Shown one piece after another: positions 45,420 through 59,413 of a stretch of DNA of 64,000 bases. The notes beneath the pieces were generated by a model. That model ran no database searches. It was given only the letters and a program-made list of their open reading frames with translations, and had not been told where the DNA came from. The DNA comes from Rufibacter radiotolerans (GTDB taxonomy: Bacteria; Bacteroidota; Bacteroidia; Cytophagales; Hymenobacteraceae): NCBI RefSeq assembly GCF_001078055.1, contig NZ_CP010777.1:1510408-1574407 (forward strand), in the 5' to 3' direction. Position 1 is the first letter of the stretch, and every line of letters starts with the position of its first letter. Made by a program: the position numbers and the translations under genes.

Positions 45420-45544
45420 TGGTTGGGGTGAAAAGCCTTTGGGGTCCTAACAAATATCTCGCCGGAAAGGTTGAATGAAAGAGGGGAGGAAGGGGGAAAA
45501 GCCAGCAAAAGCAATAGAATAGGCGTTCGCCGGGGAAAAAAATA

Positions 45545-45990
45545 AAATCAGTAAGCCTGTAAGCCGGGTTTTGTCCTTTGCCTTGCGGCAAATGGCTTAT
45601 CATTTATCTAGACCCGCCCTCACGGAGGGGCTCCATCAACCTACCCACTGACATCGGACGAGCAGCCCTTAGCCTTACCCTTAGGCAAGACGCTGTCAGC
45701 CTATTTGGTCTTTCAACTCCTGAGGTTTACCCAGCCGGTCTGGTCGCCCAGCCGCTGGTGCGCTCTTACCGCACCTTTTCACCCTTACCCCTTTTTAATT
45801 AAGAATTTAGAATTAAGAATGACTCGTAATTCCCCATTCCTAATTAAAAGAGGGCGGTTATTTTCTGTGGCACTGGCTGTCACCTGACCGTCTCCCGTCA
45901 AGTGCCTTCCCGTTAGGAAGCAGGATGCTCTGCGTTGCCCGGACTTTCCTCCCCGCCCGAAGGCGCAGCGATAAGCCGGCTTACTGATTT
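45545..45990 (-). ncRNA. rnpB: RNase P RNA, bacterial class A
   Basis: The catalytic RNA of RNase P, which trims tRNA 5' ends. P1 is a perfect 13-base stem between 45978-45990 (5' end) and 45545-45557 (3' end). The universal GAGGAAAGTCCGGGC is on the minus strand at about 45937-45953, ACAGAAA at about 45862-45868, and the GGTAAGGGTGAAAAGGTGCG and AGACCAAATAGGCTGACAGC segments are present. About 446 bases, longer than usual; the extra length is an AT-rich arm at 45791-45850, probably P12. A U-rich tract follows P1 at the 3' end. Confidence 0.95.
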
Positions 45991-51148: not shown

Positions 51149-51178
51149 TTGCTATTGAAAAACCAGCCGGTATATTTG
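51149..51178 (+). promoter_or_regulatory. Promoter of the trp operon
   Basis: TTG (51149-51151), 19 bases, TATATTTG (51171-51178): a full Bacteroidota promoter. The predicted start near 51183-51185 coincides with the first leader ATG, so that frame would be nearly leaderless. Confidence 0.8.
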
Positions 51179-51182
51179 CAAC

Positions 51183-51236
51183 ATGAACATGACCCAAATT
51201 CTGCACAACGCCTGGTGGCACGCACGTCAAATCTGA
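51183..51236 (+). CDS. First trp leader peptide
   Basis: 17 residues, MNMTQILHNAWWHARQI, with a tandem Trp pair at residues 11-12. The Trp codons lie in the loop of a hairpin formed by TTCTGCACA (51199-51207) and TGTGCAGAA (51253-51261). Translation may start at the second ATG (51189), as the first is at the transcription start. Confidence 0.65.
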   Translation: MNMTQILHNAWWHARQI

Positions 51237-51340
51237 TGGGTGAACCGCTTGCTGTGCAGAAATGCAATATAGAACAAGGCTCGGATTCACCCGGGCCTTT
51301 GGTGTTTCTAAGGGGGTACAAATTCAAAACAAAAGAAAAA

Positions 51341-51400
51341 ATGAAATCAGGACAGAAGAACGCAATGCAGTGTTGGTGGCACCAATCGGAAGATTCGTGA
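51341..51400 (+). CDS. Second trp leader peptide
   Basis: 19 residues, MKSGQKNAMQCWWHQSEDS, with tandem Trp codons at 12-13, preceded by an A-rich initiation region. Its TGA stop (51398-51400) is the first three bases of the antiterminator arm, the geometry expected for ribosome-controlled attenuation. Confidence 0.85.
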   Translation: MKSGQKNAMQCWWHQSEDS

Positions 51401-51456
51401 ACAGCAGGCTATTGCCTATTCTAAACTTGCCCATATCCAAAAAGGCTTGCTGTTCA
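51398..51456 (+). promoter_or_regulatory. trp antiterminator stem
   Basis: TGAACAGCAGGCT (51398-51410) pairs with GGCTTGCTGTTCA (51444-51456): 13 pairs, two of them G-U. This excludes the terminator, because its right arm is the terminator's left arm. GCTTGCTGT at 51247-51255 can instead pair with ACAGCAGGC (51401-51409), giving an upstream competitor. Confidence 0.85.
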
Positions 51457-51478
51457 TATAAAACGGCAAGCCTTTTTT
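51439..51478 (+). terminator. trp attenuator terminator
   Basis: AAAAGGCTTGC and GCAAGCCTTTT pair perfectly around a 15-base loop, ending in six T directly before the trpE start. Confidence 0.93.
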
Positions 51479-51479
51479 A

Positions 51480-52901
51480 ATGCACTTTATGAAAACCTAC
51501 ACCTTACAAACGCAATACCGCCACCTGCTGGCAGACACCGTTACCCCGGTGGGCATTTACCTGCAGCTACGCGATAAATACCAGAATTGCCTGCTGCTGG
51601 AAAGCTCAGACTACCACGGGCATGAAAACAGCTTTAGCTATATCTGCTGCGAGCCTATTGCCGAGTTCCGGTTGAAAGACAGCGTGCTGCGTCAGTCATT
51701 CCCGGACGGCAGCGTGGAGGAGCAGACCCTGACCACCAAGCGCGACGCGGTAGATATTCTGCAGGCCTACTGCGGCCGGTTCAAGTCTGAGGCCCAGCCT
51801 TTCGGATTTATCCAGAACGGGTTGTTTGGCTACATGTCTTTTGAGGCGGTGCAGTACTATGAGCAAGTAGAGCTGCAGGAAAAGGAGACGGCTCACCCCG
51901 AGATGCCCGAGATTCTGTATCAAGCCTTCCGGTATGTAATTGCCATTGACCACTTCAAAAACCAACTCTATATTTTTGAGCATTTTCTGGAAAATCAGCC
52001 CCAAAACGACGGCCTGAACGAACTGGAGAATCTGATCAGAAACAAGAACTTCCCCATGTTCCAGTTCACACTGTCAGGCGAGGAAACCACCAACCAGACG
52101 GATGAGGAGTTCCTGAGGGTCATCGAGGAAGGAAAGCGCCACTGCCACTTGGGCAATGTGTTCCAGATCGTGCTTTCCCGGCGGTTTTCGCAGTCGTTCC
52201 AAGGCGATGAGTTCAATGTGTACCGGGCCCTGCGTTCCATCAACCCCTCGCCATACCTGTTTTACTTTGACTACGGCAACTTCAAGATCTTCGGGTCATC
52301 GCCGGAGGCGCAGCTACTCATCAAGAATGACACGGCCAGCATTTTCCCTATTGCCGGCACCTTCAAGCGCACAGGCAATGACGCCGCCGATGCCGAGCTG
52401 GCCCAGAAATTGTATGATGACCCCAAAGAGAACGCCGAGCACGTGATGCTGGTAGACCTGGCTCGCAATGACCTAAGCCGCCACGGTGATGAGGTGAAAG
52501 TGGAGGTGTTCAAGGAGGTGCAGTACTATTCCCACGTGATTCACCTGGTGTCTAAAGTGACGGCCCGGTTGCCCAAAGCAAGTGGTTCTTTACAAATGGT
52601 GGCAGATACCTTTCCGGCGGGTACGCTCTCAGGGGCGCCCAAGCACCGGGCCTTGACGCTCATAGACAGCCTGGAACCCACAGGCCGCGGGTATTACGGC
52701 GGTTGCATTGGCTACCTGGGCTTTGGCGGCGACTTCAACCACGCCATCATGATCCGGTCATTCCTGAGCGTGAAAAACAAGTTGTATTACCAGGCCGGGG
52801 CGGGGGTAGTGGCCAAGTCAGATACCCGCTCAGAACTGAACGAGGTGCACCACAAACTGGCTGCCCTGCGCAAGGCCCTTGAGCGGGCTACCACAATTTA
52901 G
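51480..52901 (+). CDS. trpE: Anthranilate synthase component I
   Basis: 473 residues (ATG 51480, or ATG 51489 three codons later). Makes anthranilate from chorismate with ammonia from TrpG. The Trp feedback site LLESS is in NCLLLESSDYHGHENSF; the chorismate-binding C-terminal domain shows VFQIVLSRRFSQ, GSSPEAQLLI, PIAGTFKR, LVDLARNDLSRHG, TFPAGTLSGAPKHRAL and the C-terminal GAGVVAKSDTRSE. First gene of the trp operon, under control of the attenuator immediately upstream. Confidence 0.97.
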   Translation: MHFMKTYTLQTQYRHLLADTVTPVGIYLQLRDKYQNCLLLESSDYHGHENSFSYICCEPIAEFRLKDSVLRQSFPDGSVEEQTLTTKRDAVDILQAYCGRFKSEAQPFGFIQNGLFGYMSFEAVQYYEQVELQEKETAHPEMPEILYQAFRYVIAIDHFKNQLYIFEHFLENQPQNDGLNELENLIRNKNFPMFQFTLSGEETTNQTDEEFLRVIEEGKRHCHLGNVFQIVLSRRFSQSFQGDEFNVYRALRSINPSPYLFYFDYGNFKIFGSSPEAQLLIKNDTASIFPIAGTFKRTGNDAADAELAQKLYDDPKENAEHVMLVDLARNDLSRHGDEVKVEVFKEVQYYSHVIHLVSKVTARLPKASGSLQMVADTFPAGTLSGAPKHRALTLIDSLEPTGRGYYGGCIGYLGFGGDFNHAIMIRSFLSVKNKLYYQAGAGVVAKSDTRSELNEVHHKLAALRKALERATTI

Positions 52902-58399: not shown

Positions 58400-59413
58400 A
58401 TGCTTATTCAATTACAACCCAACATAGGGGCAGCGGAAAAAGAGGCGATCATCAACAAGGCCAACGCCCTCAAATATAAAACCACCGAGGTGATTACCCA
58501 GGCCGGCCATTACCTGGTAGGCACCGGCAAAGCCGAATTTGACGTGCGCGCCATCGGGCATTTGCCCGGCATCAAAGACATTCACATAGTCTCAGATGAC
58601 TACCGGTTGGTGTCCCGTAAATGGAAAGTGAACCCCACGGTGATTGACTTCGGGGATGGTCTGCAGATAAAGGAAGGCGAACTGGCGCTTATGGCCGGCC
58701 CTTGCTCTATTGAAAGCGAAGAACAGATTGAGAAAACCATCCAGCACTTGGTGTCACAGAACGTGCGCTTTATGCGGGGCGGGGTTTTCAAGCCGCGCAG
58801 CTCGCCTTATTCTTTCAGGGGCATGGGCCTGGAAGGCTTGAAAATGTTCTATGACTTGTGCCGTCAGGCCGGGATAAAAGTAGTCACTGAGGTAATGCAG
58901 GTATCGCAGATTGCGCCCATGGAACCATACACCGATATTTTTCAGGTAGGGGCAAGAAACACCCAGAACTTCAACCTCCTGGATGAACTGGGCAAGGTAG
59001 ACAAACCCGTGCTATTGAAACGCGGTATCTCCGGCACCATTGATGAACTGCTGTACTCCGCTGAATACATTTTCTCCGGGGGCAATGAAAAGCTCATGCT
59101 CTGCGAGCGTGGGATCCGCACCTATGAAACGGCCAGCCGTAACACCTTAGACCTTAACGCCATTCCCATTCTCAAGGAAAAGACGCACCTACCCGTGATC
59201 GTGGACCCATCGCACGGCATAGGCATACGCGAGTACGTGGAGCCCATGGCCCTGGCCGCCATCATGGCCGGTGCCGACGGAATCATATACGAAACCCATG
59301 AAAAGCCCGAAGAAGCTGCTTCAGACGGCGCCCAGACCCTAAGCTTCACAGAATCTGAACGCATGATCAGGAAGATGCGGAAGGTGTTTGAACTTCGGAA
59401 AGAGTTGGTGTAG
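58400..59413 (+). CDS. aroF: DAHP synthase (Thermotoga/Bacillus type) at the end of the trp operon
   Basis: 337 residues. An N-terminal ferredoxin-like regulatory domain of about 65 residues (MLIQLQPNIGAAEKEAIINK) precedes the class I-beta catalytic barrel (MAGPCSIESEEQ, FMRGGVFKPRSSPYSFRG, VLLKRGISGTIDE, VDPSHGIG). Feeds the common aromatic pathway. Nine bases after trpA, so it is regulated with the trp genes by tryptophan, while the fused DAHPS/chorismate mutase at 38423 falls under the Phe/Tyr leader. Confidence 0.96.
   Translation: MLIQLQPNIGAAEKEAIINKANALKYKTTEVITQAGHYLVGTGKAEFDVRAIGHLPGIKDIHIVSDDYRLVSRKWKVNPTVIDFGDGLQIKEGELALMAGPCSIESEEQIEKTIQHLVSQNVRFMRGGVFKPRSSPYSFRGMGLEGLKMFYDLCRQAGIKVVTEVMQVSQIAPMEPYTDIFQVGARNTQNFNLLDELGKVDKPVLLKRGISGTIDELLYSAEYIFSGGNEKLMLCERGIRTYETASRNTLDLNAIPILKEKTHLPVIVDPSHGIGIREYVEPMALAAIMAGADGIIYETHEKPEEAASDGAQTLSFTESERMIRKMRKVFELRKELV

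Follow-up and report, generated by a model that had tools for sequence, protein, structure and literature searches.

How transcription of a trp operon may be governed by a leader that encodes two short peptides with adjacent Trp codons is the question raised by the locus analysed here. Amino-acid attenuators are textbook single switches. The window (the whole stretch of DNA that was analysed, 64,000 nucleotides of the Rufibacter radiotolerans contig NZ_CP010777.1) contains trpE (51489-52901, plus strand), the first gene of the trp operon, with an alternative ATG start at 51480. TrpE is 89% identical to the protein of Rufibacter sp. SYSU D00344 and 88% identical to that of R. latericius, and its N-terminal identity falls to 73% among 15 genomes of the genus. 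Judging by their translations, the frames downstream of trpE are presumably trpG, trpD, trpC, trpF, trpB, trpA and a DAHP synthase gene. The last of these, a frame at 58400-59413 that we take from its reading to be DAHP synthase-like, lies immediately 3' of trpA, suggesting that entry into the aromatic pathway may also be under control of the trp leader. Elsewhere in the window, the minus strand at 45544-45987 carries a bacterial RNase P RNA of class A (267 bits).

The leader of trpE and its promoter

A preliminary description of this DNA had placed two short frames with Trp-Trp pairs ahead of trpE, at 51183 (ORF1) and 51341 (ORF2), and both were indeed found there, between a Bacteroidota-type promoter and trpE. 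When the leader was dinucleotide-shuffled 5000 times, two or more such frames arose in just one shuffle, and the folding energy of the leader (z = -4.7) was equalled in none of 100 shuffles. When 15 genus genomes were aligned, every one showed the two ORFs, the two Trp-Trp pairs and the two downstream hairpins; the loss of the pairs from close relatives, which had been named as counter-evidence, was not seen in any of the 15.

The promoter (51149-51178, plus strand) consists of a TTG at 51149-51151, a spacer of 19 nt and the -7 box TATATTTG at 51171-51178, and all 15 genus genomes retain the pattern TTG-N19/20-TAnnTTTG-CANY-ATG. The -7 box of Flavobacterium psychrophilum occupies positions -12 to -5 (PMC9723704). 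When this geometry is applied, the predicted +1 falls on 51183, the A of the ORF1 ATG, and the same coincidence holds throughout the 15 genomes, which makes it probable that ORF1 is leaderless and translated as such. Both units of the leader described below are probably carried by one transcript, since no TAnnTTTG box lies between the first terminator (T1) and the Trp codons of ORF2 in any genome of the set. The same absence speaks against two alternative promoters, each serving one attenuator and giving transcripts with one or both units; this arrangement appears extremely unlikely, even if unit 2 by itself looks like the lone unit found in related genera.

The position of the start codon seems to be a more general feature. 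Among 75 trp leader units from other Bacteroidota (loci L003-L080), 38 have their ATG 0-9 nt behind the predicted start, where about 0.4 would be expected by chance from the density of boxes in upstream DNA. To our knowledge, Bacteroidota do not rely on Shine-Dalgarno sequences. As a prediction from promoter geometry, these spacings suggest that trp leader peptides with little or no 5' UTR are common in the phylum, and that Bacteroidota often translate them from such leaderless or near-leaderless transcripts. Only about 3.7% of the 5' UTRs of B. thetaiotaomicron are shorter than 10 nt (PMC7366714).

Architecture of the two units

ORF1 (51183-51236, plus strand) encodes the 17-residue peptide MNMTQILHNAWWHARQI, with its Trp codons at 51213-51218, and its length differs among relatives solely by one in-frame codon. 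The second half of the frame, Trp codons included, pairs with the stretch around and behind the ORF1 stop codon to form the pause hairpin P1 (51199-51261, plus strand). P1 folds in all 15 genomes and is supported by covariation, with 12 double-change cells against 3.7 in shuffles and none of 500 shuffles reaching as high a value; the hairpin is also folded by divergent relatives. According to the folding, P1 would sequester both the Trp codons and the 5' arm of the antiterminator AT1 in ribosome-free RNA. AT1 (51238-51292, plus strand) joins GGGTGAACCG at 51238-51247 to CGGATTCACCC at 51282-51292, and 98% of its cells are paired across the 15 genomes, with almost no variation. It shares strands with the terminator T1 (51276-51309, plus strand), which comprises a core stem of 51276-51284 with 51291-51299 and the interrupted U tract TTTGGTGTTTCT at 51298-51309. 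In masked folding, AT1 formed when the RNA through 51229 was masked and T1 was still incomplete. With the complete T1 present, the lowest-energy fold was T1 and not AT1, even for a ribosome on the Trp pair, so that antitermination depends on AT1 forming first.

Unit 2 follows an A-rich region. ORF2 (51341-51400, plus strand) encodes the 19-residue peptide MKSGQKNAMQCWWHQSEDS, with Trp codons at 51374-51379; its frame and Trp pair are retained in all 15 genus genomes, one of which (L086) has an in-frame indel. In two others (L087 and L089), a one-base deletion behind the Trp codons shifts the frame and yields WWW, and the resulting longer peptide crosses the arm of the antiterminator AT2, as the single leader peptides of Pontibacter do. 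In the single-sequence fold of the window, the Trp codons and the 5' arm of AT2 lie within a hairpin, P2 (51362-51414, plus strand); the consensus fold of P2 in the genus is weak, and the hairpin is weakly supported beyond the window sequence. As the preliminary description had proposed, an antiterminator begins on the ORF2 stop codon and is followed by a terminator with six T before trpE. These are AT2 (51398-51457, plus strand), in which 51398-51410 pairs with 51445-51457, and T2 (51440-51479, plus strand), in which 51440-51455 pairs with 51463-51478 ahead of TTTTTT. AT1, AT2 and T1 are so uniform across the genus that covariation cannot test them there.

The two terminators differ in strength. 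On a score of the d'Aubenton-Carafa type, T2 reaches 16.8 in the window and 16.8 to 36.6 in the genus and is strong, the median for single-unit terminators of relatives being 33.5, while T1 is borderline, with -2.6 in the window and -13.4 to +11.3 over the 15 genus genomes. The low score of T1 is due to the interruption of its U tract (UUUGGYGUUU), and the first gate may thus terminate little. In DNA, the tail TTTGGYGTTT at 51298-51309 is invariant in the 15 genomes. Its GGYG extends the T1 stem (CCAAAGG/CCUUUGG) in L084, L088, L091, L092 and L094, but not in the window; in L094 the tail lengthens the stem to 15 bp, whereas it is unpaired in the window. Pairing of the conserved GGYG with ORF1 codons was considered and discarded, as a by-eye check found it not to be conserved.

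An interrupted U tract in 15/15 genomes and a low score, next to a strong T2, would be in keeping with a leader in which only unit 2 terminates and unit 1 is a duplicate that has decayed or taken on a new role, with a hairpin that pauses RNA polymerase for ribosome synchrony or tunes RNA stability. This is, however, difficult to reconcile with the conservation of unit 1. The spacer and the beginning of ORF2 are less conserved than ORF1, its Trp pair, P1, AT1 or the T1 hairpin (mean pairwise identity is 95% for the T1 hairpin vs 41% for the adjoining spacer), and AT1 and T1 retain their mutually exclusive layout. Simple decay is disfavoured because it would not conserve these parts, and we regard termination by unit 2 alone as unlikely.

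The preliminary description had assigned ORF1 another role. It had noticed the segment GCTTGCTGT at 51247-51255 and tied it to a hairpin over the first Trp pair, which proved right, the segment being the 3' side of P1. It had also proposed that GCTTGCTGT captures the 5' arm of AT2, in which case ORF1 would free or hide the captor, and two peptides would tune one terminator. The window does contain the 9-nt complementarity, of which 91% of cells pair across the genus, but 165 of 500 shuffles covary as well as the real alignment and an inner G-C pair is broken in 5 of the 15 genomes. Moreover, the conservation of GCTTGCTGT is accounted for by its place in P1, which covaries, and ORF1 owns the AT1/T1 pair, which had been missed. 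This cross-talk between the units is accordingly very improbable. What survives of the two-tier sensing suggested earlier is a Trp-Trp attenuator with two peptides, found genus-wide, and not its wiring through GCTTGCTGT; because ORF1 has its own antiterminator and terminator, a two-tier behaviour is likelier to come from two serial attenuators. ORF1 is the head of a complete attenuator (P1, AT1 and T1), not an accessory sensor for the second.

A probable pair of gates in series and its known counterparts

Both units are present and conserved, and the structures available to them vary with the state of the ribosome. In masked folding, the pause hairpin and the terminator appeared in both units with no ribosome, the antiterminator in both with a ribosome on the Trp pair before the terminator was complete, and the terminator in both with a ribosome at the stop codon. 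Each unit also shows hallmarks of a trp attenuator, namely a short Trp-Trp ORF upstream of a trp gene, a mutually exclusive antiterminator and terminator, and a hairpin hiding the antiterminator arm, which is weaker in the case of P2. The doubled trp attenuator is real and conserved, and its mechanism would be classical ribosome-mediated attenuation, doubled in series. In our judgement, the leader probably works as two complete ribosome-mediated trp attenuators in series, both sensing charged tRNA-Trp.

The mechanism envisaged for each unit is well supported by the modelled structures. In ribosome-free RNA, the hairpin over the Trp codons would hide the antiterminator arm and the terminator would form. 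When tRNA-Trp is scarce, a ribosome stalled on the Trp pair would open the hairpin, the antiterminator would form and transcription would go on; with ample Trp, a ribosome at the stop codon would cover the antiterminator arm, leading to the terminator. Transcription of trpE would require passage of both gates. At the first, a probably leaderless peptide precedes a weak, conserved terminator; at the second, an internally initiated peptide is followed by a strong one. From the sequence we infer the translation of the peptides, ribosome stalling, termination, the transcription start and the serial effect. As to the purpose of the doubling and of the weak first gate, we suggest tentatively that the leader could be a two-stage Trp sensor of non-equivalent gates. 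A leaky gate with a leaderless peptide would tie transcription and translation together from the first nucleotide onward, to be followed by a tight, internally initiated gate; the two together might make the response to Trp steeper or wider than a single gate can, or gate 1 might also report translation initiation. The frequency with which trp leader peptides of Bacteroidota are predicted to be leaderless, or nearly so, forms part of this proposal.

Whether the leader belongs to the Bacteroid-trp RNA motif of Rfam had been left as a question, and no match to that model (RF01692) was found in its own genome, the leader not being listed even at E 10. Membership of Trp_leader (RF00513) was likewise rejected (15.7 bits vs a threshold of 41, E 2.8), and matches of the leader to miRNA, Thr_leader and U4 families were sub-threshold. 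The Bacteroid-trp leader, described by Weinberg et al. 2010 (PMC2864571), is nevertheless similar in occurring in Bacteroidota upstream of trp genes and in having a terminator behind a WW(W) leader peptide. Eight of the 20 relatives' loci scanned passed the RF01692 threshold and have the same layout, but all eight are flavobacterial and none belongs to Cytophagales; furthermore, the relatives' loci have one unit, whereas the Rufibacter leader has two. The leader resembles the Bacteroid-trp family in the way it would work, without reaching its cut-off. With E. coli trpL (RF00513) it shares a Trp-Trp peptide, a pause hairpin, an antiterminator and a terminator, between which the position of the ribosome decides, although the sequence match is insignificant and E. 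coli has a single unit. The leaderless trpL of Sinorhizobium meliloti, whose transcript starts at the ATG of the leader peptide (PMC7298713), offers a parallel to ORF1, but is a single unit with its own attenuator in another phylum.

In the literature searched, mainly open-licence, we found no report of two serial leader-peptide attenuators that respond to one and the same amino acid, the mgtCBR leader of Salmonella being the sole comparable case. Tandem T-boxes set two whole sensing units, with their terminators, one behind the other ahead of a single operon. Two full sensor-terminator units in series also occur in tandem riboswitches, e.g., that of Bacillus clausii metE (cited in PMC3641672). 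Tandem riboswitches and T-boxes differ from the Rufibacter leader in binding the metabolite or tRNA directly, without ribosome stalling. In the mgtCBR leader, two short ORFs each affect transcription into the operon, but the signals are ATP and proline (PMC3641672), whereas in Rufibacter both ORFs carry Trp codons and each has a terminator. Adjacent Trp codons are the only repeated codon run in either ORF1 or ORF2, unlike what would be expected of peptides reading different signals. The authors of the mgtCBR study termed their tandem a singular example (PMC3641672).

Distribution and origin of the tandem

A covariance model of single units (R1) was built from 55 sequences. Two of its matches lie in the window, one at 51207-51308 with 58.5 bits and one at 51365-51483 with 77.0 bits, both window units being part of the training set, the remainder of which was mostly single units. 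The tandem pair was found in 15 of 16 genus genomes, that is, in all 15 having trpE; in the sixteenth (G011), which lacks trpE, the best match covers part of the protein at 31% identity. Across Bacteroidota loci, trpE has single units of this design upstream. Among the matches listed for 204 family genomes, the pair was confined to the genus, and one sister genus contributed about 50 genomes with one strong match each. The 390 order genomes included at least one further tandem, in G438 (L109:374-623), where the ATG of the second unit lies directly behind the first U tract. A third case was found in a Flammeovirgaceae MAG (L018:2608-2949). In both of these loci the two units are complete and both terminators are strong. 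Every other genome with a match among the 395 class genomes had one, among the matches listed. These tandem counts are lower bounds, since the filters were strict and matches were listed only in part. With regard to the generality of the double peptide, about which the preliminary description had asked, it therefore extends throughout the genus and is rare elsewhere.

Several other candidates were dismissed. In G299, G346 and G412 the two matches lie on different contigs, as do the two listed for G357, and these four genomes possibly have another trp locus served by a separate attenuator. G430 and G378 showed one Trp-Trp leader ORF apiece in the regions examined.

The contribution of a second gate to dynamic range, steepness and noise can be tested directly, given an unequal natural pair throughout the genus, sister genera with single units, and further pairs that occur separately within the order. 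A tree of the short unit sequences gave no indication of whether unit 1 or unit 2 is ancestral. All first units nonetheless grouped in one clade (0.997) and all second units in another (0.977), indicating that the duplication predates the radiation of the genus.
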